Source: Clostridiaceae bacterium (lineage in GTDB: Bacteria > Bacillota > Clostridia > DSM-8532). Taken from it: 33,252 nt of DNA. The stretch spans positions 1-33,252 of the forward strand of contig JAAYXD010000256.1 in assembly GCA_012516065.1 (NCBI GenBank), in the 5' to 3' direction. Positions 1 through 15,874 of this stretch are shown piece by piece (the first letter of the stretch is position 1; every line of letters starts with the position of its first letter). The notes under the pieces were generated by a model. The model was not told where the DNA came from, did not search any database, and worked only from the letters and a program-made list of their open reading frames with translations. The position numbers were made by a program, and so were the translations under genes.

Positions 1-1353
1 GTGGACAAGCCTTGCCCGGTTATGGATCCATACAGGAGCGTGATAGCTCAGTGGATTAAGGATGATGAGCGGGCACCTCGGAAACAGCGTCACACTGCGT
101 CTCGGATATATCACAGACTTTGCGATGAATATGGGTTTCGTGGTAGCGAATCAACGGTACGGCGATATGTCAGAAGAGTTAGAGCAGAGCTAGAGCCTTC
201 GCATGTTGATCCCTTTTTGGTGCTGGAAGCTGATCCTGGAGAGATGGCTCAGATCGATTGGGGAACGGCTCAAGTCAATCTCTGCGGGATCAGGACCACC
301 GTTCATCTGTTCTGTATGAGAATGAGGTATAGCAAGGTTCCCTTTGTCTGGGCAGCGACGAATGAGCGTTTGGAGACCTTCATGGAAGGACATGTGAGGG
401 CCTTCAGCTGGCTAGGCGGTGTACCCCAGAGGATTGTCTACGATAATCTGACCACAGCGATCAAGAAGATCCTGTCCGGGCATGACAGAGAGCTGAGCGA
501 GAGGTTTGTGGTGCTGAGGTCACACTACCTGTTCGACGCGGTCTTTTGCAACAGGGCGGCTGCCTGGGAGAAAGGGACCGTGGAAAACCTTATCGGATAT
601 GTTAGGCGGAACTGCCTAACCCCGATGCCTTCAGTGGACTCGACCGAGGAGCTTAACTCACTACTGTCAGAGTGGTGCGAAACAGAACGCCGGAAACACT
701 CAGACGAATGGACTCTGGAGCTCAATGGACTGAGGAAACTACCCAAAGAGGCACTTAGAGCTTGCATTTCGAAGCTCACAGTGGTCTTCAACAAGCAGTC
801 GCTAGTGACATACGAGAGGAACCGTTACTCAGTGCCCTGCGAGTTCATAGGCCAATCCGTCAGGATCGATGCGTTCACTGACAGGATCGAGATCTACAGC
901 AAAGACAGGCTCATTGCTTGCCACAGTCGCAACTATGGGCGCAATCATACCAGTCTTCAGTTGGAGCACTATCTGACAGCGTTGGAGCAGAAGCCATATG
1001 CAGTCATGAACGCATCCGTGGTGAGGCAGTTACCGGAGCCATTTCATCAGGCATGGGAGATCCTTTGCAGACAAAGTCCCGAGCGATACAGAGAGCTGGT
1101 ATCTATTCTCCAGTTGCATAGCGAATACTCGAGGGAACAGATCGCAGGAGCAGTGAGAAAATGCTTACGAGCAGGCTGTCTCGGGTTTCGAGAGGTTAAG
1201 CAGTTACTCCTGAATGAGCACGACTACCGAGCAAGAGCATCTTCAACCGGGCTGCCTGCTTCAGTAGCCGATGTGGTCGTGCCAGTGAGTGATCCTAGCA
1301 GCTACGATGTGCTGATGGGGGTGAGAGCATGGACAGCAGCCTCACAGCACTAG
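1..1353 (+). CDS. istA: IS21 transposase IstA, N-terminus cut by window edge
   Basis: This is the DDE transposase of an IS21 element, which cuts and joins DNA ends together with its ATPase helper IstB. The visible part carries the linker with APRKQRHTA (about residues 25-33), then the catalytic core: Asp86 in AQIDWG, Asp148 in IVYDNL and a Glu in the EKGTVEN block (probably Glu195). The C-terminal part has the YERNRYSVP segment typical of the family. Family members are near 500 residues and begin with a helix-turn-helix of roughly 60 residues that is missing here, so the GTG at position 1 is just an internal codon at the window edge and not a start. The 3' end overlaps istB by 25 bp, as is common in IS21. 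No frameshift is visible, so the gene could be active if its left part is intact. Confidence 0.93.
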   Translation: MDKPCPVMDPYRSVIAQWIKDDERAPRKQRHTASRIYHRLCDEYGFRGSESTVRRYVRRVRAELEPSHVDPFLVLEADPGEMAQIDWGTAQVNLCGIRTTVHLFCMRMRYSKVPFVWAATNERLETFMEGHVRAFSWLGGVPQRIVYDNLTTAIKKILSGHDRELSERFVVLRSHYLFDAVFCNRAAAWEKGTVENLIGYVRRNCLTPMPSVDSTEELNSLLSEWCETERRKHSDEWTLELNGLRKLPKEALRACISKLTVVFNKQSLVTYERNRYSVPCEFIGQSVRIDAFTDRIEIYSKDRLIACHSRNYGRNHTSLQLEHYLTALEQKPYAVMNASVVRQLPEPFHQAWEILCRQSPERYRELVSILQLHSEYSREQIAGAVRKCLRAGCLGFREVKQLLLNEHDYRARASSTGLPASVADVVVPVSDPSSYDVLMGVRAWTAASQH

Positions 1354-2129
1354 AAGGACTGGTTGATCTGCACTGCAAGACCCTAAAGCTGCCGGGGATC
1401 AGAAGGGTGTACCGTGAACTGGCCAGAGAGGCTCTCGACAACGGTCTATCGCCAACTCAGTTCCTTTTGAGCTGCTTAGAACACGAGGCCGAGAACCGAA
1501 GGGAGAACAAACTCAAGGCAAATCTCCGAGCAGCTAGATTTCCAGCTACGAAGACACTGGATCAATTCAGCTTTGCAGAGATACCCTCGTTGCCAAAAGC
1601 CAAGGTCTTGTCCCTGGCCGACTGCCAGTTCATTCGCCAGAGGGAGAACGTGATCTGCGTCGGCCGGCAAGGCACTGGAAAGACGCACATATCCATCGCA
1701 TTGGGTATGGCAGCGATTGAGGCGGGTTTCCGTGTCAGGTTCATCAAGGCGGTCACCTTATCTCAAGAGCTGCTGGCAGCACAGCAAGAGGTCCGACTCA
1801 ACAAGTACCTAAAGAGCTGGCGAAGGATTGACCTGGTCATTCTAGATGAGCTGGGCTACTTACGGCTGGGGCCAGGAGCTGCTCCCATGTTTCAATTCAT
1901 AGCCGAACGCTATGAGACAGGGAGCATTATGGTCACTAGCAACCTGGAGTTCTCAAGATGGGAGGAGATATTTGGTGACGCAGTTATGACTGCAGCCCTG
2001 CTAGACCGACTTACACACAGATGCCATATCCTTGTCTTTGACGCAGAGTCATACCGACTCAAGGAGAGCAGACGACGGCATGAATCAGCCGATACGGCCC
2101 CGGAGAATACCGAAGACCGTGACGACTGA
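1329..2129 (+). CDS. istB: IS21 helper ATPase IstB
   Basis: IstB is the AAA+ ATPase, related to DnaC, that assembles on target DNA and directs IstA. The 266-residue product is full length. It has a Walker A motif GRQGTGKTH (residues 112-120), Walker B LVILDELGYL (169-178) with Asp173/Glu174, the sensor-like ITVTSN-type segment (MVTSN) and the late LLDRLTHRCHI block characteristic of IstB. The start ATG at 1329 lies inside the end of istA (stop at 1351-1353), consistent with translational coupling. The C-terminal about 20 residues are acidic and poorly conserved in kind. Nothing suggests that this copy is damaged. Confidence 0.95.
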   Translation: MDSSLTALEGLVDLHCKTLKLPGIRRVYRELAREALDNGLSPTQFLLSCLEHEAENRRENKLKANLRAARFPATKTLDQFSFAEIPSLPKAKVLSLADCQFIRQRENVICVGRQGTGKTHISIALGMAAIEAGFRVRFIKAVTLSQELLAAQQEVRLNKYLKSWRRIDLVILDELGYLRLGPGAAPMFQFIAERYETGSIMVTSNLEFSRWEEIFGDAVMTAALLDRLTHRCHILVFDAESYRLKESRRRHESADTAPENTEDRDD

Positions 2130-2160
2130 TGCCATGCGGACATTATTCACATTAGCCGGG

Positions 2161-2197
2161 GTGGTCAACTTTTACGTGACCAAAGTGGTCAACTTTT
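2161..2197 (+). repeat. IS21 right-end subterminal direct repeats
   Basis: The 13-base block GTGGTCAACTTTT occurs at 2161-2173 and again at 2185-2197, a period of 24 bp. Such repeated blocks close to the ends are known in IS21-type elements and act as transposase binding sites. They lie between the istB stop and the proposed terminus at 2212. Confidence 0.7.
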
Positions 2198-2232
2198 TGA
2201 TTGACGAAGACACCTAAGAATACATTATGACA

Positions 2233-2310
2233 TTAATTGCACTTTTTCCTACTTCTAGCCTGCATTGATAGGATTTGTCCAACCAAATATGACCTTTTCA
2301 TTTTATACAT
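2233..2310 (-). CDS. Short ORF of 25 residues between the lipoprotein gene and the IS
   Basis: Reading leftwards from the lipoprotein stop, a GGAGGT SD-like site is followed by an ATG at 2310 and a 25-codon basic reading frame that ends about 20 bp before the proposed IS terminus. It may be the start of a gene disrupted near the IS junction, or chance. No family is recognisable. The rest of the 2213-2338 gap shows nothing else. Confidence 0.2.
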   Translation of the reverse strand: MYKMKRSYLVGQILSMQARSRKKCN

Positions 2311-2338
2311 TGTTGTATATTACACCTCCATGATGCTT

Positions 2339-2737
2339 TCACTTACCCACATTTTTGACAAAAACCTTGCCTGTTGCACCTTTCCCGGTGATCCGTATCT
2401 CATATCTATCCGTTTCAGATACTGTTACCGTGAACAAACCTGGCTTAAGGTTGTTTCCCGTATAGGGTTCACTACCGTTTTTGCCTTTGACCACAAGGGC
2501 GATTTCTCCGTGTTCCCGGAATACCTCAATCTGCAGCACATCACCTTTCTTAAGGGACAATTCACACTTGCTATTCGAGCTCCACTCCTTAAAATCCATT
2601 GTTACCTGTGTTCCATTTGGATTCTCACGAATCACAATGCTGCCCTTAGACGTGGAGCACGCCGAGAACACTATAGCAATGGCAATCAAGAGCGGCAGAA
2701 AGATGAATATTATTCCGTTTTGTTTTCTAAAAAGCAT
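2339..2737 (-). CDS. Small lipoprotein of unknown function
   Basis: The product is about 132 residues. It begins with a short basic stretch (MLFRKQNG), a hydrophobic helix and a lipobox ending FSAC, so it should be lipid-anchored on the outer face of the membrane. The mature part opens with KGSIVIRENPNGTQV and ends with a compact beta-rich domain containing VTVSETDRYEIRITGKG. I do not recognise a named family. I chose ATG 2737 because AGGAGG lies 7 bases upstream; a longer frame to 2779 has no such site. The start lies 28 bp inside the end of the alpha/beta hydrolase gene, so the two are probably translationally coupled. A decayed paralogue sits four genes upstream in the same operon (4496-4760), with the same SIVI-ENP-GT and SETD-YEI-IT signatures. 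Confidence 0.8.
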   Translation of the reverse strand: MLFRKQNGIIFIFLPLLIAIAIVFSACSTSKGSIVIRENPNGTQVTMDFKEWSSNSKCELSLKKGDVLQIEVFREHGEIALVVKGKNGSEPYTGNNLKPGLFTVTVSETDRYEIRITGKGATGKVFVKNVGK

Positions 2738-3912
2738 GCCAAAACCTCCTTTACAAACTTTACCGGTTCGTTGATCCACGGACTGTGGCCGGAATGCTCA
2801 AACCATACGATTTTTTTCTTTGGCGCATCCAGAACCTGCATGTATTCCTCGGCCAGCACTGTGGGCGCATTGACATCGTGTCGCCCCAGGAAGAAATAGA
2901 CAGGCACATCAAGTTTGGTGTAATCCGTTCTCAGATCGATGGTATAAAGCTGTTGGTACACATGGTTGTACGTGTTGATAATGCCGCGGATGAAGTTGAT
3001 CTTGTCAAGCAGCCCATACTCAGAGGAACAGATATCCCGCAAGGTGTTGTAGCCTGGATTGTGGATTTCAGGATTGTTCGCCATATAGGCGCTGAGATAG
3101 TTCAGGTAAACCGCGCTTTTCCATGTTACGTCATCTCCGTAATAGGGTGGTTCACCATTTGCTTTAAGTCGTTCGATGAGGGCAGTATCGCCTTTGGATT
3201 GCGCGATTTCCATGGCCTTCGCGTAGTCCATCCGCTCGGTTTCGGCAAAGTCTATCATTTGCCCGGTGCCGATCAATGCGTGGTAGGACCCGGGATACTT
3301 ATCAACAAGGAAAATCCCCAAAGCACTGCCCCATGATTCACCAATCAGATAGATTTTCTCCTGCGAAAAACGCTCCTTTAAATACTCAGTCAGAGCGTGG
3401 CCATCCTCAATATAGGTCTGGGCGGTAATATTCTTCGTTTTCTCTGCATGATAGGACTTTCCAGAGCCGGGCTGATCCCAGTTGACCACAACAAAATGCT
3501 TCTCAAGTTCCGCCAGCTCATGCCGCACCGCCGCCATCTGAGTACCACCAGGGCCGCCTGCCAAGAAGAGCAAGACAGGTGCGTTTTTGTCCCAGCCTCT
3601 GACGCTGATCCACTGTTTTCTCCCGTTCAGCTCAAGTTGGATGAGCTCTGCAATGCTGTTTTGGGGCGTGTTCCCGTTTTCATCAACAATGCGCGGCGTG
3701 GAAGCGGTAAGCTGAGAAATGGTGATTAGTCCTGCGTTCAACAGCATCGTCACTGCGAAGAAGATCATTGATTGCTTCAGCCGAACAAGATGTTTGGGAG
3801 CGATCTTGTTCATCCTGCCGACAATGGCACAATATGCTGTCTGGCCCAAGAGTACGACAAGCGAAAAGACCGCCAAAACAGTTAAAATGAGGAATAGTAC
3901 TACCTGAATCAT
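2710..3912 (-). CDS. Membrane-anchored alpha/beta hydrolase (proline iminopeptidase-like)
   Basis: The 400-residue protein has two N-terminal hydrophobic helices (about residues 3-27 and 47-67) followed by an alpha/beta hydrolase domain. Visible motifs are the oxyanion-loop block LAGGPGG (117-123, a variant of HGGPGG), the WDQPGSGKS segment (145-153), the nucleophile elbow GESWGS with Ser193, a probable acid Asp346 in GRHD and catalytic His376 in HSGHSPW. The GGPG and WDQPG signatures place it near the proline iminopeptidase/S33 group, but its substrate is unknown. The SD AAGGAGG overlaps the stop of the upstream methyltransferase gene, which puts both in one transcript. The membrane anchor and lipoprotein partner suggest that it acts at the cell surface. 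Confidence 0.85.
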   Translation of the reverse strand: MIQVVLFLILTVLAVFSLVVLLGQTAYCAIVGRMNKIAPKHLVRLKQSMIFFAVTMLLNAGLITISQLTASTPRIVDENGNTPQNSIAELIQLELNGRKQWISVRGWDKNAPVLLFLAGGPGGTQMAAVRHELAELEKHFVVVNWDQPGSGKSYHAEKTKNITAQTYIEDGHALTEYLKERFSQEKIYLIGESWGSALGIFLVDKYPGSYHALIGTGQMIDFAETERMDYAKAMEIAQSKGDTALIERLKANGEPPYYGDDVTWKSAVYLNYLSAYMANNPEIHNPGYNTLRDICSSEYGLLDKINFIRGIINTYNHVYQQLYTIDLRTDYTKLDVPVYFFLGRHDVNAPTVLAEEYMQVLDAPKKKIVWFEHSGHSPWINEPVKFVKEVLACFLENKTE

Positions 3913-3930
3913 TGCTACATGAAACCTCCT

Positions 3931-4482
3931 TTATCGCTTGCTGTATAGACATTCCAGAGCGTTCCCCATCATCGGGATATCAATGATGCGGCTATCCATG
4001 GCACACAAACTGTTGTGCTCTACCAGGCTTTTTATAAGGCTTATCTTGTCCGTATCAGTCAGCGGCTCACGAAAAGCGAGTAAACCACTTGGTTTAAGGG
4101 ATTCAGCCAGCACTGGAATCACTCTTGCCAATTCCTTATCCGGAATGTCATGCAGAACAAAGTGGCAGTAAACAACGTCAAAGCTTTCTTTTGCAAGCGT
4201 AGGTGATTCCCACAGCAGGTAATCGACATTTCTATACTTCCGCAGTGTTGTGCGGCAGGCATTCAGCCATCGCTCGGATATATCCAGGCAGGTCAAATGC
4301 CCGTGGGACAGCTTCTTGGCGACGTAGTAAGCAACCGTTCCCATGCCACACCCGAAATCCAGAACCTGCTCTCCGCCATCAAGGGGCAGCCGGTCCGCGA
4401 ATGCCTGGTAGACCGACTTGCCGCAAAGACGAAACGCGAGCTTTGCTAGTAACATTTCCAAACGGGGCGGTTCATACTTCAT
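3931..4482 (-). CDS. Class I SAM-dependent methyltransferase
   Basis: This is a 183-residue Rossmann-fold methyltransferase. Motif I is VLDFGCGMGTV (about residues 40-50), followed by an acidic SAM-ribose position in TCLDIS, and a motif IV-like block YCHFVLHDIP. A short C-terminal region holds LAFREPLTDTDK. The size suggests a small-molecule or lipid substrate, but nothing in the sequence identifies it. The start ATG at 4482 follows an AGGAGAG stretch that overlaps the end of the decayed lipoprotein gene, and its stop overlaps the SD of the hydrolase gene, so it is firmly part of the minus-strand operon. Its first 12 coding bases are identical to those of the decayed lipoprotein gene. Confidence 0.82.
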   Translation of the reverse strand: MKYEPPRLEMLLAKLAFRLCGKSVYQAFADRLPLDGGEQVLDFGCGMGTVAYYVAKKLSHGHLTCLDISERWLNACRTTLRKYRNVDYLLWESPTLAKESFDVVYCHFVLHDIPDKELARVIPVLAESLKPSGLLAFREPLTDTDKISLIKSLVEHNSLCAMDSRIIDIPMMGNALECLYSKR

Positions 4483-4495
4483 TGCTTTCTCTCTC

Positions 4496-4760
4496 CTAAT
4501 TCACATTTTGACCATAACGTTTCCGGTCGCTTTTTTCGGTGATTTTGATCTCATATTTGTCCGTTTCCGATACCGTTACAGTAAAAACAGTTGACTTCAG
4601 GTTTCTTCCTGTATAGGTTCACTGCGACTCCTGTACCGCCTGGATTCTCCAGAATCACAATACTGCCCATGGGTACGTAACATCCCGAGAACGTCAGAAG
4701 GATGCCTATCACCAGCAGCTGCTTGAGCAAACGACCTACAAATGCCTTTTCATACTTCAT
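4496..4760 (-). pseudogene. Decayed paralogue of the small lipoprotein
   Basis: The open frame from ATG 4760 (SD GGAGG upstream) encodes a signal peptide and lipobox ending FSGC, then MGSIVILENPGGTGVAVN, which matches the start of the mature lipoprotein at 2339-2737. It then runs into a wrong frame and stops at 4551. In a neighbouring frame, the DNA directly after it reads YTGRNLK, then FTVTVSETDKYEIKIT, matching the C-terminal half of the intact paralogue. About 35-40 residues in the middle are therefore missing and the two halves are out of frame. Near the end, small length differences against the paralogue (around an A-run and a second A-tract) shift the frame again. A short truncated product with a lipid anchor could still be made from 4551-4760. 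Confidence 0.75.
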
Positions 4761-4778
4761 TGGCTCTCCACCTCCCAT

Positions 4779-4843
4779 AAAAAAATCAGCTGTATTTCAA
4801 GGCTCATCACTATAGTAGCAATCGAACCTGTAATACAGCTGAT
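4779..4843 (-). terminator. Large hairpin with T-run, terminator or attenuator
   Basis: On the minus strand, a perfect 12-bp inverted repeat (ATCAGCTGTATT at 4785-4796 against AATACAGCTGAT at 4832-4843) encloses a 35-base loop and is followed by seven Ts. It begins 19 bases after the kinase stop and its T-run ends right at the leader of the next gene (GGAGGTGGAG and ATG). That is the form of an intrinsic terminator separating regulator genes from their downstream genes, or of an attenuator controlling readthrough. Confidence 0.75.
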
Positions 4844-4861
4844 GTGTATCTTAAATCTACC

Positions 4862-6259
4862 TTAAACTGTGGGGAGCGTGATTCGGAAGTTACTGCCCCC
4901 GCTGCCGGAGAGAAGTACCAAATCGCCTCCATGTGCCTTTGCAATCTTTCTCGCTATGGAAAGCCCCAAGCCGCTGCCGCCGGTCCTTGAGTTGCGGGAA
5001 TCATCTGCCCGGACAAAAGGCTTGAAAATCATGGCTGCAAGCTGATCCGGTATGCCAATCCCGTCATCACTGAAATCGATCAGCACCTTGTCATCCTGTA
5101 TCATAAGGCTGACCGTGACCTGTGTTCCCTTGGGATTGTACCGCATCGCGTTGTTTGCCAGATTCTGAATGATGCGGCTGAAGCGGTCGGTATCCAGCAT
5201 TACAAAAACGCTGTCTTCAGGGATATCGAATTCGTATTTGAATCCTTCGCGCTCCAGCTGCGGCACAAGCTCGCCGCACAGCTGCCGGATATATTCGCAG
5301 ATATCTGTTTTTGCCAGCTTCAATGAGAACTCAGGGCTGTCCAACTGCGAAAGCTCAAACAGCTCGGTAAGCAGCCGGTTGGCTCTTTTGCTGTTATTGA
5401 GTATGATTTCAAGGTATTCATCCCGCTCCTGCTCAGGGATGCCCGCATTCTTGATAAGCAGCTCCGCATAGCCCTGGATACTGGACATAGGGTTTTTCAG
5501 GTCATGAGAGATGTCGAGGATCAACCGCCGCCTGTCTTCTTCCGACCTTTTGCGCAGGGAGATCTCATGCTCAATCCGGGCTGCCATGTCGTTAAAAGTG
5601 TTCTGAAGCTCGGCGAACTCATTCTTCAGGCGTAAATCCACCCGCACAGAGTAATCACCTTCCCGCAAAAGCCTAGTGCCGTCACAGAGCTTTTTCAGGG
5701 GTATGGTTATACTCGCTGCTGTAATCCTTGAATAGATAAAGGTAAAAAGTGCAAGGATCAGAAGATAAATCAGCACCACGAAGGCTATCACCGAACCTGC
5801 CCGCACAAAGTCACCTGCGGTGGCCTCTTTATTGAACACCAGGGAAAAATCCAGCCGAATGGATGTTGGGAAAGTGACAATCAGCCAAAACTCGCCTTGT
5901 GGGTGGTAAAGGATATCGTAATGATAGGGCTTACTCTTGCTTTCTGTTAAAAATGCTGTAAATTCTTCAACAGTCAATTTGTCTTTCCCAATGGTGTCAA
6001 GGCCCTTTGAATAAACAACACGGTATTCCTTATCCACAACCTGCACACCGCCGCCGTTTGCCACTACAGCGGATGCGTCAATCTGGTTATAATCCTCTTG
6101 GATAATCGCGCTGGCAGGGTACTGGTTTTTTGCCAAGGAGCCTGCAATCAATCCGCTGGCAAAGGATAAAAACATAAATGCGAGTACTGTATCCAGTATC
6201 GTCAGTAAGAAGATCACCAGAAAATCTCTGAAGAACTGATTGGACAGTTTTCTGCTCAT
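4862..6259 (-). CDS. Sensor histidine kinase
   Basis: This is the membrane sensor of a two-component pair; it autophosphorylates and passes the phosphate to the regulator encoded just upstream. The 465-residue protein has a first membrane helix (about 13-37), an extracytoplasmic domain of roughly 115 residues, a second helix (about 153-177), a HAMP linker, then the dimerisation box LDISHDLKNP with phospho-acceptor His252. The ATPase part has the N box QNLANNAMRYNP, G1 box DDGIGIPD and G2 box GGSGLGLSIA. All key residues are present. The start ATG overlaps the regulator stop by 4 bp (ATGA). The domain order is that of common OmpR-partner kinases; the signal sensed cannot be read from the sequence. 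Confidence 0.93.
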   Translation of the reverse strand: MSRKLSNQFFRDFLVIFLLTILDTVLAFMFLSFASGLIAGSLAKNQYPASAIIQEDYNQIDASAVVANGGGVQVVDKEYRVVYSKGLDTIGKDKLTVEEFTAFLTESKSKPYHYDILYHPQGEFWLIVTFPTSIRLDFSLVFNKEATAGDFVRAGSVIAFVVLIYLLILALFTFIYSRITAASITIPLKKLCDGTRLLREGDYSVRVDLRLKNEFAELQNTFNDMAARIEHEISLRKRSEEDRRRLILDISHDLKNPMSSIQGYAELLIKNAGIPEQERDEYLEIILNNSKRANRLLTELFELSQLDSPEFSLKLAKTDICEYIRQLCGELVPQLEREGFKYEFDIPEDSVFVMLDTDRFSRIIQNLANNAMRYNPKGTQVTVSLMIQDDKVLIDFSDDGIGIPDQLAAMIFKPFVRADDSRNSRTGGSGLGLSIARKIAKAHGGDLVLLSGSGGSNFRITLPTV

Positions 6260-6957
6260 GGCTTTTCTCCGGTATAATGGAGCTTGTAGCCAATGCCCCG
6301 AATTGTTTTCAGATACTTTGGATTTTGCGGATCGTCCTCAATCCGGTTCCTGATGCGGCTGATATGCACCATTACAGTGTTGTCGTCAAAATAGTATTCC
6401 TCGTCCCAAACCGCGTGGTAAAGCTGCCGTTTTGTAAAAACCTTCTCCGGGTGTTCCATAAAATACAGCAGCAGCTTGTACTCTTTTGCGCCAAGCTCAA
6501 CCGGCTCTCCGGCCTTGTAAACGCAGCATTTTTCTTTGTCTACAGACAAATCTCCGTATTCAATGGTTACGTTTGATTTTTCCTTTGGCGAAAGATACTC
6601 ATTGCTCCGCCTCAGCTGTGCGCCGACGCGGGCCACTAGCTCGGCAATGGAAAAGGGTTTGGCAAGATAATCGTCCGCACCCAGCCCGAGCCCCAGCACT
6701 TTGTCCATATCATCCGCCCTCGCGGTTAGGAAGATGACGGGGATGGTGCTGTGTTCCCGTATTTTGCGGAGCAGGTTGAATCCGTCCATCACCGGCATCA
6801 TTACGTCAAGGATTGCCAGATGAACGTCCTGTGTGGTAAGGATGTCCCATGCTTCCTTGCCGTTCTGGGCTGTCAGGACGGTGTATCCGTTTTCCTCGAG
6901 ACTGATTTTGATTAAGTTGCGGATGTCACTTTCGTCGTCCGCGATAAGGATAACCAT
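6256..6957 (-). CDS. OmpR/PhoB-family response regulator
   Basis: The 233-residue protein has a receiver domain with the acidic pair Asp7/Asp8, phospho-acceptor Asp51 (LAILDVMMP), Thr78 in FLTAR and Lys100 in LAKPF. A winged-helix DNA-binding domain follows, recognisable by ELGAKEYKLLLYF, the VWDEEYYFDDNTVMVHISRIR segment and a terminal IRGIGYKL. The gene overlaps the kinase by 4 bp. An AGGAGG lies 13 bases before the ATG at 6957, longer spacing than usual. Only about 46 bp separate it from the CPBP gene on the same strand, so both may share a promoter. It probably controls the downstream lipoprotein/methyltransferase/hydrolase genes. Confidence 0.94.
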   Translation of the reverse strand: MVILIADDESDIRNLIKISLEENGYTVLTAQNGKEAWDILTTQDVHLAILDVMMPVMDGFNLLRKIREHSTIPVIFLTARADDMDKVLGLGLGADDYLAKPFSIAELVARVGAQLRRSNEYLSPKEKSNVTIEYGDLSVDKEKCCVYKAGEPVELGAKEYKLLLYFMEHPEKVFTKRQLYHAVWDEEYYFDDNTVMVHISRIRNRIEDDPQNPKYLKTIRGIGYKLHYTGEKP

Positions 6958-7003
6958 ATGGCTTTTAACGCCTCCTGCCTAAAGGACTCGGCGATTTATC
7001 GCG

Positions 7004-7759
7004 TTATATTGACACTTCGATAATTGCAAATACGTAACCCAGACCCACAATAATAACATTTGAAATACTATGCATTACCATTGGGTAAACAACACTGTTA
7101 CATTCTTGATATGCTTTTCCATAGACTATGCCTAGAACAAAGCAGAATATCAGTTGAAGATAGTTCATATCAATTGAGAATGGATTGATAGTCCATCTAA
7201 TATGGGCGATTGAGGACAATACTGCAGCTATAATAACCTCATAGGATAAGTTTAGTCTGGTAAATCTCTTCTTCGTGTCACTGCCAACATAGAAAGTGAG
7301 GATACCAATAGGCAGAGCCCGGAACAAAATCTCTTCTGACGGCCCTGACAGCAACAGCTGGAACCCCAATGTACCCAAAACATTTTTCGCATTTAACGGA
7401 TAACCATATTGTACAGTCTGATTACCGAAATACCTAATCACACACGTGACAACAGTAAACCCAAATACTGCAGCTGAAAAAACAAGCAAGTACTTCATTC
7501 CCAGCCTTCTATCGCCCGCGCTAAAACCGAAATCAATTTCATATATCCTGTTATATATTATGATAACAAGCAGCGCAATAAGCATCTGTACCAGGTGATG
7601 TACAGATATATATGCGAAAATGCCATGTTCATCTACTACCCCATAATCAAGACTGTTAGCAATTAAGTTCCCAACTTTACTAGCGAACTGCTGGAATATT
7701 AACAGGGAGGCTATTACTAATATACTTAACCCTCTTGGATTGTTTTTACTATTCATCAT
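7004..7759 (-). CDS. CPBP-family intramembrane metalloprotease
   Basis: This 251-residue polytopic membrane protein carries the CPBP (CAAX protease and bacteriocin-processing) motifs: the EExxxR box in GPSEEILFRALP (Glu142, Glu143, Arg147), a histidine in SIAHIRW (His186), and the HxxxN box in MHSISN (His230, Asn234). Six or more hydrophobic segments are visible. The family includes enzymes linked to bacteriocin self-immunity and peptide processing; a specific substrate cannot be assigned. SD AGAGGTG precedes ATG 7759. The gene is clearly more AT-rich than the flanking chromosome and its codon use differs from the genes to the right, which fits horizontal acquisition. It is probably first in the minus-strand regulator operon. 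Confidence 0.88.
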   Translation of the reverse strand: MMNSKNNPRGLSILVIASLLIFQQFASKVGNLIANSLDYGVVDEHGIFAYISVHHLVQMLIALLVIIIYNRIYEIDFGFSAGDRRLGMKYLLVFSAAVFGFTVVTCVIRYFGNQTVQYGYPLNAKNVLGTLGFQLLLSGPSEEILFRALPIGILTFYVGSDTKKRFTRLNLSYEVIIAAVLSSIAHIRWTINPFSIDMNYLQLIFCFVLGIVYGKAYQECNSVVYPMVMHSISNVIIVGLGYVFAIIEVSI

Positions 7760-7778
7760 ACACCTCTATCATCCAATT

Positions 7779-7868
7779 CTAATTTTCCTTGTTTTTGAGC
7801 CAACAGCCGCATAAGTAGGAAGCAGCATTGCCATCATCATCGAGTATGACATCCCCATACCAGCCCAT
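7779..7868 (-). CDS. Short ORF upstream of the CPBP gene, doubtful
   Basis: An ATG at 7868, preceded by GAGGTG only three bases away, opens a 29-residue frame containing MGWYGDVILDDDGN and two cysteines, ending in KNKEN. It could be a small leader peptide, the remnant of a gene tail at the island edge, or chance. No family is recognised. The rest of 7760-7960 shows no other gene. Confidence 0.22.
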   Translation of the reverse strand: MGWYGDVILDDDGNAASYLCGCWLKNKEN

Positions 7869-7960
7869 TTTCACCTCGTGCAGACCAGCAAAACTAGAAG
7901 CTCAATGTCTAGAACCCCTTATTTAACTTTAACCTTTGACATCAATACCACTGTCTCCAC

Positions 7961-9163
7961 ATGGTGGGTGGGAGAGGCAATGTCGAGATCCCCCATCCGC
8001 TTCGCGCCATTAGCAGCCAGATCACGATCACCTTTGATGGGCTTCCGTATGGTGCCTCGAGTTTCACAGACAACCGGCAGCGTGTGATATCCGAATCTAT
8101 CAATGAAGATGGAGTCTCACAAGTCGTCGTCGACATTTCAGTAGACACGACTGATCGAACGGGCCGCGCATTTCTGCCAGTGACTGATGAGCATCTGAAG
8201 GAGTATCTCGGCACTTCCCGGCACATAACCCCAGACTACGAGCCGATCAAGGAAGCTGCCATGAAGGTGGTCGGTGATGAAAACGATGTCTATCGGGCGG
8301 TAGAGAAACTCCTAGTCTTCACCCACAACTACATTGACTACGCGTTGACACTTGAGATCTTCTCTGCTCCTGACATCTTTGAGCGCAAGCAAGGGCGTTG
8401 TACTGAGTACGCCATTCTGTTTGCCTCCTTGACCAGGGCAGTAGGTATTCCTTCCCGCCTGGTGTTCGGCTTCCGCTATAGCGGGACGACCTGGATGGGG
8501 CATATGTGGAACGAGGTCTATGTAGATGAATGGATCGCTGTGGACGCGGCTCAAGGCCAAATGGCTCCGGATGCACTTCTTGTGAAGGTCGCGCATGCAC
8601 CGAGCCTGACTGGAGAAGAGAATCTGCAAGCAACTGTCTTCACCGGACATCGCCTCAATATCGATAGCGTTACGCTGAGGGAGATCGAAGCTCCTGAGGG
8701 CGTTCCAGCCAAATCGGGCATCTACGGGAACCAGTATACGAGCCGCGAACATGCCTGCCAGATATCCGTGCCCGAGACGTGGACCATGACAAAAGGCGAA
8801 CTGGTAGGCCAGTCCATGTTGGTCATGCAAAACAAGGCGGGAGGAGCCTCGGCAGTACTCATGACCTTCGATGCTCCCATGGGCGTCAGTGCAAAGGAGG
8901 TTCTCGACGGCTCCATTCAGCAGGCGGCGACGAGGATGTCTGCTACGGCGCTATCTAGCGGCACCGCAACTCTGGGCAACCTGACCGGCGTATCAGCGCG
9001 GCTAAGAATCGACGCAGAAGGCGCGGAGGTTCTCCAGGACATGATTGTGGCAGTGTCTGACGACATAGTGTACGTGGTGACTCTCACTGCCTTGGCGGCT
9101 GCGTGGGATTTGTTCGCCCCGGATTTTCAGGAGATCAGAGACAGCTTCGTCTCTTGGAGGTAG
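7961..9163 (+). CDS. Transglutaminase-like protein, N-terminus apparently lost
   Basis: The 400-residue frame holds a transglutaminase-like (papain fold) domain with Cys147 in GRCTEYA, His181 in GHMWNEVYV and Asp195 in WIAVDAA, a complete catalytic triad. Upstream is a beta-rich part with GNVEIPHPLR, and residues from about 255 form a PsbP/DcrB-like domain (ISVPETWTM to the end). Members usually begin with a signal peptide and a longer beta domain. Here the frame opens abruptly, has no SD, and an in-frame stop lies at 7937-7939, just left of the point where base composition changes. I infer that the 5' end was removed when the island arrived. The function in the intact form would be outside the cytoplasm; whether this fragment is expressed is doubtful. 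Confidence 0.75.
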   Translation: MVGGRGNVEIPHPLRAISSQITITFDGLPYGASSFTDNRQRVISESINEDGVSQVVVDISVDTTDRTGRAFLPVTDEHLKEYLGTSRHITPDYEPIKEAAMKVVGDENDVYRAVEKLLVFTHNYIDYALTLEIFSAPDIFERKQGRCTEYAILFASLTRAVGIPSRLVFGFRYSGTTWMGHMWNEVYVDEWIAVDAAQGQMAPDALLVKVAHAPSLTGEENLQATVFTGHRLNIDSVTLREIEAPEGVPAKSGIYGNQYTSREHACQISVPETWTMTKGELVGQSMLVMQNKAGGASAVLMTFDAPMGVSAKEVLDGSIQQAATRMSATALSSGTATLGNLTGVSARLRIDAEGAEVLQDMIVAVSDDIVYVVTLTALAAAWDLFAPDFQEIRDSFVSWR

Positions 9164-9218
9164 GACCTGCGCGGCAGGAGCGGGCCGCAGGATCAACTGA
9201 CACTCCTAGCTAGATACT

Positions 9219-9260
9219 GAGAGCCATGGCAGTAACGCATCGGCGTCAGCCACGGCTCTC
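9219..9260. terminator. Hairpin between convergent genes, possible terminator
   Basis: An inverted repeat pairs GAGAGCC and TGGC (9219-9230, one mismatch between them) with GCCA and GGCTCTC (9249-9260), around an 18-base loop. It lies between the 3' ends of the convergent transglutaminase and permease genes. There is no good T-run on either side, so its role as a bidirectional terminator is a guess. Confidence 0.4.
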
Positions 9261-9330
9261 GTTTCGGGGGTATGGTAACTGGCATCGTCGGATTTTGCGT
9301 CGTCGAGTTAGCCCCGCTACTGCACTAAGG

Positions 9331-10221
9331 CTATCCTTTGAGTGCGCCCGCCAGGGTTCCTCTGAGGATCCAGCGGTTGCCGATGATGTAGAGCAGCAGT
9401 GTGGGCGCTGCCGCAATGACAGCAGCTGCTGCGTACCTTGGCATGTTGTCGGTTCCGTAGGCGTTGATGAACTGGGCGACCCGCATCTGCATCGTGAAGA
9501 GCTTTTGGTTGTTGATCATGATCAAGGTCAGCAGGTAGTCGCTCCAAGCCCCGATGAACACCAGAAGCGTCGCGAGGACTGTGGCTGGCGTGGCCAGGGG
9601 AAGCATGACCCGGAGGAACACGCCCAAGTGCCCAGCCCCGTCAATCCTCGCTGCCTCCGCCAGCTCTGACGGGAGGCTGCGGAAGAATGACCTGTAGATA
9701 ATCGTCCAGAACGGGATCCCAAATGCCGCTATAGGCAAGAAGACTCCCGGCAGCGTGTCGAGCAGGCCGAGCTGGCCGTTCAGTTTGTGCAGGGGAATCA
9801 GGACCATCTGCACGGGCACGAAGTAGCCGGTCAGGATGACGTAGAACATGACCTCGGTCCATCGGTTGCGGTAGCGTGCGAAGATGTACCCGGCCATCGC
9901 TGCAGACGGCACAGTGCAGACGATCGCTCCGATGCAGACTTGCACCGTGTTGATGAAGCCCTGGTCGATTTTGACTGCCGTCCACGCCTCTTTGAAGTTG
10001 GTCCACATGATCTGCTTGGGCAGAGCCCATGGGTAACGTGCAAACTCGAGGCGCGTTTTGAACACAAAGAACCACGGGAGGAAGAGCGGCAGAATGATGA
10101 TCAGCGCGAGCACAATCAAGATGACGAGTATGAGCAATGCCGATGGATCAAAGCCTCTGCGTCGCCGCCAACCGGTCCACCTCTTGGTTTGTTCTGCGGT
10201 GATGAGGTCTATGCTCCTCAT
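9331..10221 (-). CDS. CUT1 sugar ABC transporter permease, MalG-like
   Basis: This is one of two membrane subunits of a carbohydrate importer. The 296-residue protein has six predicted helices and the EAA loop SELAEAARIDGAGHLGVFL (about 185-203) that docks on the ATPase. It lacks a periplasmic insertion and ends in the RGTLAGALKG tail typical of MalG/LacG-type subunits. Its start overlaps the stop of the partner permease by 4 bp (ATGA). It is last in the operon regulator, binding protein, permease, permease. No sugar-importer ATPase is encoded nearby, which is common for CUT1 systems served by a shared ATPase. The sugar is unknown. Confidence 0.93.
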   Translation of the reverse strand: MRSIDLITAEQTKRWTGWRRRRGFDPSALLILVILIVLALIIILPLFLPWFFVFKTRLEFARYPWALPKQIMWTNFKEAWTAVKIDQGFINTVQVCIGAIVCTVPSAAMAGYIFARYRNRWTEVMFYVILTGYFVPVQMVLIPLHKLNGQLGLLDTLPGVFLPIAAFGIPFWTIIYRSFFRSLPSELAEAARIDGAGHLGVFLRVMLPLATPATVLATLLVFIGAWSDYLLTLIMINNQKLFTMQMRVAQFINAYGTDNMPRYAAAAVIAAAPTLLLYIIGNRWILRGTLAGALKG

Positions 10222-11177
10222 GCGATATCACCACCCCTTCGCTGCAACGAGAACTGCGCGACCGATAGGAACAGCGACATCAGGAAGATTACGACACCGA
10301 TAGCTGCTGCCAGACCGTAGTGCCAGTTCACGAAACCCTGCCTGTAAAGGACTACGGCAAGAGTCGTGGAGGAGTAGCGTGGCCCGCCCTGAGTCATTAG
10401 GTACACTATGTCAAACAGCTTGAGGCAGCCTACTGTGTTTATGATTGCGAGTATTCGAATAGGGTAAGAAACCATTGGCGCGACCACATATACGGCGTAC
10501 TGGAATCGATTGGCTCCGTCAAGTTCGGCGGCTTCTCGAATGTCGGCCGATATCTGCTCGATGTTCGCCATCAGATAGACAATGCCAAAGCCGATGTAAG
10601 CCCACGTGGCTATTGCGAACAGTGACCAGAACACGTTGCCCGAGTCGCCCAGGAAGTCGATCCTTGCCAACCAGGTCCATCCGAGTGTTTTCGACAGCGT
10701 TGCAATCACCCCGAACTTAGGAGCAAAGACGAACCGCCCGAGCATCGCCACGATGGTCGAAGGAATGATGCTCGACATGTAATAGACTACGCGCAAGACG
10801 CCGGTGAAGCGGCTCTTGTATGCGACGAGAGAGAAGGCGATGAAGAAAGCAAGCGGGATCTGAATGACAATACTCCAAAAGGCCCAGATGAGGACATGAA
10901 CAAAACCAGCCCGGAATTCCTCGGAGTGGACACCGAATATCAGTGCTCTGTAGTTCTCTAGGCCGATATAAGTAGATTCACCCACACCGCTGGTTTGCAT
11001 CAGAGACGTGCGGAATGTCTCTTCTATGGGATAGAACATGAACACTAAGAGAAATGCAACAGCAGGAAGGAGGAACAGCAACTGGAAGATAAGTCTGCCG
11101 TAGTCGTACTTCTTCTTCCGCGGCACTTCGTGCCAGTTTGCCTGGGCGAGGGGAGCTGCGTCCGGGCTGCCGCTCAT
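10218..11177 (-). CDS. CUT1 sugar ABC transporter permease, MalF-like
   Basis: This 319-residue membrane subunit partners the MalG-like protein. A cytoplasmic N-terminal tail (about 25 residues) leads to the helix LLFLLPAVAFLLVFMFYP, and further helices follow, with the EAA loop ADIREAAELDGANRFQYAV (about 211-229). The YLMTQGGPRYSSTTL segment near the C-terminus is typical of MalF/UgpA types. GAGGAG lies before ATG 11177. A 112-bp gap separates it from the binding-protein gene, with a strong 4-bp overlap to the next permease, so the three are one transcript. The substrate should be an oligosaccharide or glycoside, by family. Confidence 0.93.
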   Translation of the reverse strand: MSGSPDAAPLAQANWHEVPRKKKYDYGRLIFQLLFLLPAVAFLLVFMFYPIEETFRTSLMQTSGVGESTYIGLENYRALIFGVHSEEFRAGFVHVLIWAFWSIVIQIPLAFFIAFSLVAYKSRFTGVLRVVYYMSSIIPSTIVAMLGRFVFAPKFGVIATLSKTLGWTWLARIDFLGDSGNVFWSLFAIATWAYIGFGIVYLMANIEQISADIREAAELDGANRFQYAVYVVAPMVSYPIRILAIINTVGCLKLFDIVYLMTQGGPRYSSTTLAVVLYRQGFVNWHYGLAAAIGVVIFLMSLFLSVAQFSLQRRGGDIA

Positions 11178-11289
11178 TCTCTACCAACTCCTCGTTGACA
11201 ATGGATCTGCGCCGAGTCTGACGAGAGTCTGTGTGAGGCGCAGGATCCCCTGCGCCCCACACACGCCTGAGGTCCAAGAGCCATCGCTG

Positions 11290-12555
11290 TTACTTGACTG
11301 GCCCCAACGCCGCGGCAACTAGGTCTTCATAGGCTGCCAGAGCCTGCTTGACATCTGTCTCCGGCATGAAGAAGCTCTGGATTGTCGTGTTCAGCGGAGT
11401 AGTGACTGCCGGCGGCAGATCCTGGTCCCACCAGAACTGAATGGCCTCGGCTGTGCCGAAGACCTCCGCCGCCATCTGGGTCAGACGGCTAGGAGCCGGA
11501 ACTCCAGGCACCGAGCAGATTCGGCCAGGATCAGCAGAGCATGCCTCTACGCTCATAGCATACTCCATAAATCGCACAACTGCATCCACCTTGTCAGCTG
11601 CAGTGATGCTCGCTGCAAAGCCGATGTCGGTCTGACCCATGATGTCTGTAAGCTTCCCCTTTCCGCCGGGCATCTCTGGGAACGGGTAGAAGCCAAGGGT
11701 CTGATCAGTGAACTCGGGATCGGAGTACTGGGCGCACATCCAGGAGCCGGTGACGTGCATGGCAGCCAGGCCGATCGCCATTGACACCTGGGCGTCGCCG
11801 TATGCTTCGCTCAGAGGAGTCTCACCGAAGTACCCCTTCTTGACCCAATCCTGGTACTTCTGGGCTGCGAGGACGAAAGGCTCGCTGTCGAAGCGTATCT
11901 GTCTTGACCGGGCCTTCTCGAACGCATCGATTCCACCGTAGCGGTCGACGAGATACATGTAGAGTGCCAGCGTAGGCCACAGATCACGGGCTCCGCATGC
12001 GAAGGGCTGAATGCCGTTGGCCAGGAGAGTGTCCGCAACCGCCTCGAGCTCTTCGACAGTTGTAGGTACCGTCAGACCGAGCTCTTCGAAGACCGGCTCG
12101 TTGAGGAATACGCCTGCAACTGCGAAGAACGGAGCTACGCCATAGACCTTGCCTTTCCAGGTCATCGCACCCTTCGCCGCCTCACTGCACTCGATATGAG
12201 CCAGTTCCTCGGTCAGGTCAAGGAGTCTGCCGGCATCCGCATAGCCACCCATGACAGAGCCGCCCCAGGATTGGAAGATGTCCGGCATACCAGAGCCGCT
12301 CGCCATGACGACCTTCACCTTGTCCATCAACCCCGGGTCGCCCAGCGCGACATAGTCGAGCTCGATGTCCGGGTTGGCTGCCTGGAACCCTTCAACAACC
12401 TTCTTGATGTACTGGTGGGCAGGGTCGTCGTCTGGCAGGTCACGTCCCCAGACAGTCAGCTTGACCTTGCTTTGGGCAAACGCCGGTAGTGCCCCTGCAA
12501 GCAGGACAAGTCCCAAGAGAACAAGTACCAAGACAACGCTTCGGGTCCTGAACAT
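11290..12555 (-). CDS. Extracellular sugar-binding protein, CUT1 type
   Basis: This is the receptor that delivers sugar to the two permeases encoded next. I place the start at ATG 12555 (421 residues), because AAGGAGG stands 8 bases upstream and the protein then opens with a classic signal peptide ending LPAFA before QSKVKLTVWGRD. The mature part shows features of family-1 solute-binding proteins: VVEGFQAANPDIELDYV, MPDIFQSWGG and the C-terminal region MEYAMSVEA. There is no cysteine at the cleavage site, so it is not a lipoprotein. That is odd for a monoderm and suggests an outer membrane or another way of retention. The gene is preceded by about 280 bp holding a 22-bp palindrome that is the likely operator. 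Confidence 0.9.
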   Translation of the reverse strand: MFRTRSVVLVLVLLGLVLLAGALPAFAQSKVKLTVWGRDLPDDDPAHQYIKKVVEGFQAANPDIELDYVALGDPGLMDKVKVVMASGSGMPDIFQSWGGSVMGGYADAGRLLDLTEELAHIECSEAAKGAMTWKGKVYGVAPFFAVAGVFLNEPVFEELGLTVPTTVEELEAVADTLLANGIQPFACGARDLWPTLALYMYLVDRYGGIDAFEKARSRQIRFDSEPFVLAAQKYQDWVKKGYFGETPLSEAYGDAQVSMAIGLAAMHVTGSWMCAQYSDPEFTDQTLGFYPFPEMPGGKGKLTDIMGQTDIGFAASITAADKVDAVVRFMEYAMSVEACSADPGRICSVPGVPAPSRLTQMAAEVFGTAEAIQFWWDQDLPPAVTTPLNTTIQSFFMPETDVKQALAAYEDLVAAALGPVK

Positions 12556-12756
12556 CGCAATACCTCCTTCTTTTTCACGAAGACGGTCACTAGAGATTTC
12601 CACTCGTTCACCGACTGACTTGCTCGATCTCCCACCTCCCCGGGACCGGAATGCACCTTCCGGAATTCGCGTCACACAGTCTCCACACAGTGATAGACAA
12701 CGAGTGGTTCAACGCCAATACTTAGGTCTTGCGTGCGTTTTCTCTGCAATACAGGG

Positions 12757-12778
12757 ACATCACAAACGTTTGTGATGT
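12757..12778. promoter_or_regulatory. 22-bp perfect palindrome, probable LacI-type operator
   Basis: The core TCACAAACGTTTGTGA is flanked by ACA and TGT to give a perfect 22-bp palindrome about 200 bp upstream of the sugar-binding protein start. Almost the same core (TCACAATCGTTTGTGA on the minus strand) lies right before the neighbouring LacI-family gene. The central CG is typical of LacI-family operators. It should be bound by the regulator encoded at 12834-13892. Confidence 0.82.
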
Positions 12779-12833
12779 ACGCTTCAACAGAAGATTCCAA
12801 TATCCTGCTTTACTTCGCAATGTTGACAGACGG

Positions 12834-13892
12834 CTACTGCCTTTGTTGCGTTACAATGGCTTCTGGCTGGTCGGAGTCTCTACATACGGTCGTAGACTTG
12901 CGGACAATCAGCTCTGGGGGATGGCAGATCTTCGTCCCATCTCCCTGTTCCGGATGGTTGAGACGAGAAACCAACAGCCTGGCAGCATCTCTGCCCATCT
13001 CATATCTGGGTTGCCGAACGGTTGTGAGCGGTGGGTTGGTCAGCGAGGAGAACTGCAGATCATCGAAGCCTACTACCGAGATGTCGTGTGGAACTGACAA
13101 CCCTGCCTCTGCGATGGCTTGGAGTGCGCCAAAAGCCATTGAGTCGTTGGCTACGAATACTGCTGTGCACAACGGCCTCGTCTCAAGAAGCGTCTTCATA
13201 GCGGAATAGCCGGTTTGCCAGACAAACGTCCCTTGCACAACCAGGTTTGGAGAGAACGCTATGCCTGCCTCATCCAGCGCTTTGCGATAGCCCTTGAGTC
13301 TGTCGGCGGCCACCTCGACATCGAGAGTTCCAGTGATGTGTGCGATTCTGGTGTGGCCGCAATCGATCAGGTGCTTGGTGGCGATATAGCCGCCCATGAC
13401 ATTGTCTACCCAGATGCAGTTCATTCTGGGATCGCGGTAGCTCCTCTCGATTACGACAAACGGAGTCCCTTTGTCTACAAGGCTCGAGATGTAGGCTTTC
13501 TCCTTTACATTGCTGCCTACGATGATCATCCCGTCGACTCTTTGGGCATCGATCATCCTTTGAACCACCCTGCTCTGCTCCAGACTCTCGTACGAGTTTG
13601 AGAACAGGAGGGTATACCCGGATTCACTCGCTACGAACTCCAGTCCCTTGATGATGCCTGAGTAAAACGGCTCAGAAATGTCGGCCATGATGACTCCGAT
13701 GGTCATGGTCCGTCTTGTTACAAGGGTGCGTGCAGCCGCGTTCGGATGATAGCCCATCTCCTTCGCTGTCTGAACTATCATCTGGCGAGTGGATTCCTTA
13801 ACCCCGTATTTGTTGTTGAGAGCCCGCGATACCACGCTGGGCGAGACCCCGACGTGGCGTGCGATGTCTTTGATTGTGACCAATTTCACCAA
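12834..13892 (-). CDS. LacI-family transcriptional regulator
   Basis: The protein has an N-terminal LacI helix-turn-helix (TIKDIARHVGVSPSVVSRALN) with a hinge region PNAAARTL, then a periplasmic-binding-protein-like effector domain (MTIGVIMADISEPFYSGI, GFDDLQFSSLTNPPLTTVRQP). It should bind a sugar and release or bind DNA in response. The frame opens with TTG at 13892 and GTG at 13889; TTG at 13880 (AGGA nine bases upstream) would give the common MVTIKDIA start, so the exact start is open. The gene stands first in the minus-strand transport operon. A 16-bp operator half-match sits 13 bp upstream of 13892, so it probably controls itself as well as the transport genes. Confidence 0.92.
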   Translation of the reverse strand: MVKLVTIKDIARHVGVSPSVVSRALNNKYGVKESTRQMIVQTAKEMGYHPNAAARTLVTRRTMTIGVIMADISEPFYSGIIKGLEFVASESGYTLLFSNSYESLEQSRVVQRMIDAQRVDGMIIVGSNVKEKAYISSLVDKGTPFVVIERSYRDPRMNCIWVDNVMGGYIATKHLIDCGHTRIAHITGTLDVEVAADRLKGYRKALDEAGIAFSPNLVVQGTFVWQTGYSAMKTLLETRPLCTAVFVANDSMAFGALQAIAEAGLSVPHDISVVGFDDLQFSSLTNPPLTTVRQPRYEMGRDAARLLVSRLNHPEQGDGTKICHPPELIVRKSTTVCRDSDQPEAIVTQQRQ

Positions 13893-13904
13893 TCCTACAT
13901 GACT

Positions 13905-13920
13905 TCACAAACGATTGTGA
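13905..13920. promoter_or_regulatory. LacI-type operator before the regulator gene
   Basis: TCACAAACGATTGTGA is a near-perfect 16-bp palindrome that differs by one base from the core of the 12757-12778 palindrome. Its place just before the LacI-family start implies autoregulation. Confidence 0.78.
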
Positions 13921-14048
13921 TAACCTAATACGCCACGAAATGCGAGTATCCTTCTTCGAGTTTGGTAGGTTAGTCGATTGGCGGGATTGCCTAGAGACAA
14001 GTGCCCCTTGCAGGCATCTTCGTGCTGCCTACTGGGGTGTCGTCCAGG

Positions 14049-14717
14049 CTAGTGGTTGGGCGGGCTGGCAGTATCGGCACCAGACAGCGCACCGATCGAG
14101 CGGTTTACCACCGTGACCCCGCTGATAGCCAGAAGGACGGAGATGCATACAGACACAATGCTGTCAGCATAGGCAGGCCAGTGACTCTGAGGATAGAGCT
14201 TGTGCATCAACAGTACCGCGAGAACTGCGCAGTCTGTTGCGGTCTTGGCTCTGTAGAGACGCCATTGAGCCTCTACTACCGGCGTGGACCGCTCGTCCGC
14301 CAGCCTCCTGAAGCGCCTCCAGAATGCCATGTTAACCAAAGCCCCTGCTGAAACTACGAACATGCCTAGCGACAGGTTCCCCGCTTCGACAGGAGACAGC
14401 ACCTGCGCAACTGCTCTTACAGCAATGGCGCACGCAGAGACGATCATCGCTGCAGCCGTAACCAGGCTCGCGACTCCCTCACGGCGAGGGCTCGGGTAGC
14501 CCCGGTTGCCCGGCTCACTCGAGCTGCGCCAAACGACCAGCCACGACACGAAGACGCCTATGAACTCGCTGGTGCGGCGAAGGAAATCCCCGAGAAGGAC
14601 AGCCGTGCCGCCGATCCAGAACGCAGCTCCAGATGTGAAGGGTGCCCACGCGCTCAGAATCCACGCCACTCGCAGGGTTCTCTCGCGGGATGTGGCGGTG
14701 GAACTGGTCGAATTCAT
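14049..14717 (-). CDS. Membrane protein resembling a cation diffusion facilitator
   Basis: The 222-residue protein has about five to six membrane helices. The segments TAVLLGDFLRRTSEFIGVFVSWLVV and YADSIVSVCISVLLAISGVTVVNRSIGALSG resemble helices 2 and 6 of CDF cation transporters, the latter with the family's usual DxxVxxxIS pattern. It has no C-terminal cytoplasmic domain and the metal-site residues are not obvious, so transport of metals is not secure. The start overlaps the stop of the kinase-like gene by 4 bp (ATGA), giving a tight two-gene unit. The surrounding DNA has the normal G+C of the region. An unrelated membrane protein is possible. Confidence 0.6.
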   Translation of the reverse strand: MNSTSSTATSRERTLRVAWILSAWAPFTSGAAFWIGGTAVLLGDFLRRTSEFIGVFVSWLVVWRSSSEPGNRGYPSPRREGVASLVTAAAMIVSACAIAVRAVAQVLSPVEAGNLSLGMFVVSAGALVNMAFWRRFRRLADERSTPVVEAQWRLYRAKTATDCAVLAVLLMHKLYPQSHWPAYADSIVSVCISVLLAISGVTVVNRSIGALSGADTASPPNH

Positions 14718-15496
14718 GGGATGCCCAGTCCAGTCAGGAACGGTGCTAACAGGGCGGCTAGCGCTGCGACAGCGATCGGGATGGAGAGCGTGTCAAGTCC
14801 CTTGTGGCTTGTCGCCTCCACAAATCCCGCTGCCACCGCTACCACAGCTGCCGTGAGGAGGCTGGCTGTCACAGAGGCTCTTGCGAGGAACACCAGGACA
14901 GGGACCAAGACAACGAACGATGTCACGATCATCGCGCCCATGCCCTCAAGTGTCTTGGCTCTGTCGAAAATGCGGCACCTGAAGTGTTTCTTGCCCAGCC
15001 GCTTACCGACCACCGCCGCTGCCGCATCGCCGAGTCCCCAGACCAGGAGGCCGGCTGCAACGTAGAAGCGGTATGTGGGCCCGAGTATTCCCCAGAACAC
15101 GACAAGCAGGATCGTCATAGTTGCCTGAACATACAGCGCTTGCTGGATGATCTCTCGGAACCCGGCGGTCCTCGAAATGGATATCTGGCGGACGGATTTT
15201 ACCTTTCCACCTATCCACATAAGGGCGAGTCCCACCGAGAATATGCCGCCGACAGCAGTGACAGCAGCGTACCAGTTCCTGAAGTGGAGTATCAGAATGA
15301 GCGCCGAGGTGCTGCACATCACGTGGTAGCTCTTTCTCACGAGTTCCCGAAGCACGGATCCGGCCCTTACTGCATGGCTGTGCTCTCCGACTCCTGTGCG
15401 CCGGGCAAAGATACTCAAGCCTGCGATGGCCGACACGAAGATGATATAGTAAACGACCAGGGCAATAGCACCTGTCAGATCACGAGTTAGCTGCAT
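14714..15496 (-). CDS. Dolichol/phytol kinase-like (CTP-transferase fold) membrane protein
   Basis: The 260-residue protein has about seven helices and the signatures of the polyprenol kinase/phosphatidate cytidylyltransferase superfamily: RKSYHVMC after the first helix, GLGDAAAAVVGKRLGKK and RAKTLEGMGAM in the middle, and VEATSHKGLDTLSIPI near the end. The last two blocks are typical of dolichol kinase (SEC59) and phytol kinase relatives, which phosphorylate isoprenoid alcohols using CTP. In bacteria the substrate could be an undecaprenol-like carrier or another isoprenoid alcohol; the sequence does not decide. I chose ATG 15496 with GGAGG six bases upstream; an upstream frame to 15610 lacks this. 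Its promoter region lies within the leader opposite to the plus-strand operon. Confidence 0.75.
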   Translation of the reverse strand: MQLTRDLTGAIALVVYYIIFVSAIAGLSIFARRTGVGEHSHAVRAGSVLRELVRKSYHVMCSTSALILILHFRNWYAAVTAVGGIFSVGLALMWIGGKVKSVRQISISRTAGFREIIQQALYVQATMTILLVVFWGILGPTYRFYVAAGLLVWGLGDAAAAVVGKRLGKKHFRCRIFDRAKTLEGMGAMIVTSFVVLVPVLVFLARASVTASLLTAAVVAVAAGFVEATSHKGLDTLSIPIAVAALAALLAPFLTGLGIP

Positions 15497-15854: not shown

Positions 15855-15874
15855 GAGAGGGGCCAGCCGAGTCC

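Follow-up and report, generated by a model that had tools for sequence, protein, structure and literature searches.

An AT-richer block of DNA lies between an IS21 element and a truncated transglutaminase-like gene in the window analysed here (the whole stretch of 33,252 nucleotides, contig C313 of bin G000, the nominal genome), and the question it raises is how the block came to lie there. The original prediction was that the block and the IS element were acquired together in a single event that cut an existing gene. Our analysis supports the block and the cut, and it suggests a different route of entry: the block is probably one end of a rumA-type serine-integrase element that inserted at a secondary site in the transglutaminase gene, and was later hit by IS21.

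Composition and borders of the block

The G+C content of 2213-7960 is 0.465 (46.5%), compared with 0.558-0.574 across 391 windows of equal length in the right flank; overall, the DNA to the right of the block is 56.5% G+C. Codon use was tested by comparing a codon model of the right flank with a codon model of G000, the difference being expressed in log units per codon. The right-flank model was favoured by all 13 flank genes tested (0.087 to 0.241), by the transglutaminase gene (0.089) and by the two IS21 genes (0.045 and 0.134), and the difference for the six intact genes of the island ranged from -0.284 to +0.008. The codon shift of the island is real; it is weak for most of the six genes and strongest in the protease gene at 7004-7759, which has the lowest GC3 among the genes tested.

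The left border is the IS21 terminus at 2212, where the matches to the end of this element also stop in many of the 34 matching genomes (398 searched); together with this conserved terminus, the presence of istA and istB, both recognised by Pfam, identifies the element. On the right, DNA homology to the intact transglutaminase gene of G100, a genome of another class, starts at 7959 (ACATGG...), with all sequence leftward being different and G100 being colinear with the window downstream of the junction. The G100 protein has 660 amino acids with an N-terminal hydrophobic, signal-like segment, and the frame in the window starts at its residue 261. A search of 398 genomes of the phylum found transglutaminase homologues in eight, including the window's own, at E 1e-20 or better, the closest of the others being G100 at 75% identity. 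Six of the seven other homologues are closed frames of 646-737 amino acids. For the remaining 400 codons compared with G100 the dN/dS is 0.139, a value that may stem mainly from the period when the gene was still whole. A search for the lost N-terminal half in G000, run with no positive control and in a genome that is probably not the true host, did not find it.

These results bear out the predicted AT-richer island with a change of composition and codon use on both sides, and the six intact genes between the IS21 and the truncated gene do all lie on one strand, the minus strand. That an acquired block cut an existing gene is likewise supported, as about 260 N-terminal residues are missing relative to the G100 gene, which is the uninterrupted relative, with the missing N-terminus, that had been proposed as a check. 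The opposite case, relatives with the same short gene and no island, was not seen: the seventh homologue (L154, G299:C84, 1327-2142) is short (271 amino acids, without the N-terminal domain), but it has its own signal-like start.

Table 1. Features of the window, with strand and the basis of each assignment.
Feature	Position	Strand	Basis
IS21-family element: istA (cut by contig start) and istB, right terminus 2212	1-2212	+	Pfam Mu-transpos_C_2, IstB_IS21; IS-end matches
AT-richer acquired segment, probably one end of a rumA-type integrative element	2213-7960		Composition and both borders
Lipoprotein (LP), about 132 aa, last operon gene, start inside hydrolase gene	2339-2737	-	Conserved, with invariant residues in 25 other loci
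Alpha/beta hydrolase (AH), N-terminal hydrophobic segments, related to proline iminopeptidase family	2710-3912	-	Pfam Hydrolase_4/Abhydrolase_1 above cut-off
Class I SAM-dependent methyltransferase (MT)	3931-4482	-	Pfam Methyltransf_12/25/11 above cut-off
Decayed second lipoprotein gene copy	4497-4765	-	Translated start and end of a lipoprotein, not in one frame; similar to lipoprotein genes by BLAST
HAMP sensor histidine kinase (HK)	4862-6259	-	Pfam HAMP, HisKA, HATPase_c; SHDLKNP box
OmpR-family response regulator (RR)	6256-6957	-	Pfam Response_reg, Trans_reg_C
CPBP/Rce1-like intramembrane protease, outside the conserved operon	7004-7759	-	Pfam PF02517
rumA/rlmD C-terminal tail H-V-E-T-V-V-L-M-S-K-V-K-V-K-stop, attachment-site-like scar	7919-7963	-	Match to rumA tail consensus
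Transglutaminase-like gene without first 260 codons	7961-9163	+	Pfam Transglut_core; 75% identical to residues 261-660 of G100 homologue

Host of the contig

The G000 bin is about 43% G+C, with sampled contigs mostly at 41-46% (two of the 19 with readable sequence are at 34-35%, and four more short contigs had none). In 4-mer use the island resembled 13 G000 contigs (correlations of 0.57-0.85) more than the right flank (0.38), and the IS21 resembled the right flank (0.67) more than the 13 contigs (-0.10 to 0.31). The DNA of 7990-27900 gave only short matches among the relatives, in 10 of 61 genomes including its own, and the right flank had no match in G001 and G002, which belong to the genus of the bin. 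G100, on the other hand, matches the right flank at 72-79% over most of 9300-28200. Because the transglutaminase gene and the right flank match G100, and the flank does not match G001 or G002, the contig comes most likely from a bacterium like G100, of another class, and is misbinned in G000, judging from these sequence comparisons; the alternative would be a large transfer into G000. The island is Clostridia-like. The prediction that the block is foreign consequently needs qualifying: it is the AT-richer, foreign part in its true host, but it is not foreign to the nominal G000, since that genome has two further copies of the operon described below, and there it is the flank that is foreign. 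A contig binned with one organism can come from a recipient of another class, and this matters for inferring gene transfer from metagenome bins. The genes of the flank (7990-33252), matching G100 at the same 72-79%, encode sugar ABC transporters and LacI regulators.

A rumA tail at the right junction

On the minus strand, 7963-7919 reads HVETVVLMSKVKVK-stop, which is the end of rumA/rlmD. Of the 33 bases of the tail (7963-7931), 29 match the consensus built from five rumA tails, the runner-up within the window reaching 20/33 and the reversed window likewise 20/33. On both strands of 517 kb of other loci, a single place had at most eight mismatches, and it is itself a remnant resembling a tail, in the Lutispora module locus L010. 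The bases of the rumA tail are kept at silent positions between genera, and the junction breaks exactly at the tail's His codon, the point at which rumA tails in this group switch type. The sequence CATGT at the junction is common to the intact G100 gene and to most rumA tails, as seen at this one junction only.

The comparison covered five rumA genes whose tails are of the HVETVVLMS type and five of the HVEC type, some of the fetched stretches being short. A serine recombinase was found near three of the five HVETVVLMS genes (L137, G010 = L157, and G041 = L162, the last a fragment), and none near those of G036 (16 kb fetched) and G059 (2.6 kb only); near the HVEC genes there were none (0/5) within the fetched stretches.

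Comparable arrangements have been described. CTn5 of Clostridioides difficile 630 has moved between rumA and the adhesin gene CD1844, and its end bears a rumA-like C-terminal piece (PMC4320837); the likeness to the island lies in this piece and in the disruption of an unrelated surface-protein gene by an element with such an end. As far as that description of CTn5 goes, the island differs in showing one end only, without integrase or conjugation genes, and in that the interrupted gene encodes a transglutaminase-like protein. In streptococci, ICEs with single serine integrases target rumA, exchanging its 3' part, and insert in coding genes, secondary sites included (PMC4701971); the island is from a different phylogenetic group and has a different cargo from the elements described there. 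The 3' end of rumA is also presented as a hotspot in Dehalobacter (PMC11578063). Two features of rumA-type elements are found at the island, namely a replacement rumA tail at the end and a junction core common to rumA and the target gene.

Because the G100 gene is intact, a rumA tail stands at the junction, recombinases lie beside like tails and there are published precedents, we favour insertion of a rumA-type element as the probable origin of the block, the common core of five bases being short and counting against this reading. The island would be the right end of an element whose serine integrase inserts into the 3' end of rumA (rlmD), bringing a replacement tail. In a G100-like bacterium this element would have used a secondary site inside the transglutaminase gene, at the CATGT common to rumA, leaving the last 400 codons beside its rumA tail and the first 260 codons beyond its other end. 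Later, an IS21 copy of the host's own kind would have landed in or beside the element. The contig ends within this IS21, short of the element's other end; the window's open reading frames in 2213-7960 include no gene for an integrase, mobilisation or conjugation, and the integrase and that other end would lie off the contig. The cargo nearest the element end would be the CPBP protease gene and a five-gene operon.

Perhaps, alternatively, a piece of clostridial chromosome ending in rumA was joined to the transglutaminase gene by illegitimate recombination, without an integrase. This would agree with an island that has no integrase gene and a common core of only about five bases, and also with the operon's other sites, which are not at intact rumA genes (there were none in the fetched flanks of 31 module loci, and only L010 and L033 have tail-like remnants). 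However, the break at precisely the His codon where the tails change type, the conservation of silent positions between genera and the recombinases beside such tails in the same group make such an event unlikely. We consider it quite unlikely that the assembler joined the DNA of an AT-rich bacterium to that of a GC-rich one, even though the contig sits in the bin of a different organism with an estimated contamination of 4.71%. The AT-rich block is placed between two pieces of GC-rich type, the IS21 and the flank, so that two false joins would be needed, one at an exact IS end and the other at a known type of integration core where only a few common bases were available for a false overlap.

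The joint entry of IS21 and block in one acquisition that cut the gene had been suggested by the IS21 abutting the block and by the cut itself, and this is the part of the original prediction that we abandon as very improbable. The IS21 has the composition of the flank, and nearly all its relatives belong to classes other than the bin's, one of them being in G142, of the same family (f78) as G100. Moreover, the scar on the right is a junction of integrase type and not an IS end, and the ends of an IS21 leave the rumA tail at that border unexplained. With insertion of a rumA-type element as the preferred reading, the event would be a further example of a known process, with a widespread operon for which no description was found, and a base-level case of secondary-site insertion by an apparent rumA-type element for which a related genome provides the uninterrupted gene for comparison.

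Other sequences related to these tails were noted. Short frames of the type DIN..xS.HVE(T/C)V..., detached from rumA, occur in L010 (10863-10964), L033 (5779-5991, just upstream of the operon), L163 (587-694) and L161 (9477-9611), and may be displaced tails, lying at the opposite ends of elements. L160 (G008:C13), with a 34-base match to the tail, has two more recombinase genes. In the nominal genome, L137 (G000:C157, 2-8561) is a restriction island on a rumA-type element: after a rumA tail come a serine recombinase (434-1408), then a cytosine DNA methyltransferase (2957-4132; Type II MTase in PADLOC) and an AAA-type restriction gene (4996-5976). The 28-mer of the junction was not found in viral contigs.

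The five-gene operon and its distribution

The operon consists, in order, of the genes for the response regulator, histidine kinase, methyltransferase, alpha/beta hydrolase and lipoprotein. Searching genome contigs with the kinase gave 31 loci, or 33 with the two further G000 copies, and all five genes are present in 23 of the 33; elsewhere genes are missing from the locus, several of these loci lying at the end of a contig. Different loci have mostly unrelated neighbours. Of 61 relatives, a number that includes G000, 12 have a match at E 1e-200 or better. In the tree the copy in the window is grouped with L011, the C132 copy of G000, L033, L010 (Lutispora) and L021 (100/99 support, six rows). 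The kinase of a copy in Lutispora thermophila DSM 19022 shows 86% identity. In comparisons of the window copy with five copies, the regulator had dN/dS values of 0.05-0.07, the kinase of 0.09-0.11, the hydrolase of 0.08-0.12 and the lipoprotein of 0.25-0.28; those of the methyltransferase were 0.17-0.41, with 0.41 coming from the C132 copy, in which the frame is apparently shortened. The operon is widespread, conserved as a unit, under purifying selection and found repeatedly beside different genes. The CPBP protease has a homologue (42%) near the operon in one other locus only, L022.

The original prediction described these genes as a self-regulated surface-protein module, of which one lipoprotein remains as the surface protein; the operon is otherwise a two-component system with a methyltransferase and a hydrolase, and the CPBP protease is outside it. 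The hydrolase carries GESWG, D and H motifs and the kinase an SHDLKNP box, which we take to be catalytic. The proline iminopeptidase model TIGR01250 gave 63.8 bits with the hydrolase, below the curated cut-off of 167.65, and no solved relatives of this protein were found at E 1e-10. VanR models are among the best NCBIfam matches of the regulator (scores of 249.4 and 238.9, with cut-offs of 460 and 350), as is VanS among those of the kinase (202.7, cut-off 400), all being below the curated cut-offs. In contrast to VanR/VanS, the pair in the island has no van resistance genes with it, its partners being the methyltransferase, hydrolase and lipoprotein.

From the gene order and what is known of the families, the kinase would sense an envelope signal and the regulator would control its own operon, so that the pair probably controls the methyltransferase, the membrane-anchored hydrolase and the lipoprotein in response to such a signal. 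A broader proposal is possible, although doubtful: the operon may be a self-regulated, as yet uncharacterised cassette for envelope response, carried between Clostridia, and in this case over a class boundary, by serine-integrase elements that target rumA, its kinase-regulator pair controlling three proteins that jointly modify or inactivate an envelope-directed compound. A literature search for such an operon found no paper, which is not evidence of absence.

Several other assignments were considered and set aside. The model of the lipoprotein (mean pLDDT 81.7) is a plain beta-sandwich. In the PDB it comes closest to GOLD domains (query TM-scores of 0.45-0.52) and carbohydrate-binding modules, matches too weak to give a function. 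Among the four island proteins submitted to PADLOC, only the methyltransferase matched a model (mad2, over 118 residues), and this match is generic, so a defence role was rejected. Carriage by phages or plasmids was rejected as well: no stretch of the viral contigs matched the kinase patterns, and the hydrolase had matches at E 1e-40 in 10 of 72,556 plasmid records, all below 60% identity.

In L011 (6301-10900) the lipoprotein gene lies between the kinase and methyltransferase genes, in the position of the window's decayed copy. In L007 (G000:C132, 855-11110) the operon copy adjoins a serine recombinase and transposase fragments, labelled as IS21 and IS66-like pieces from a reading of the sequence.
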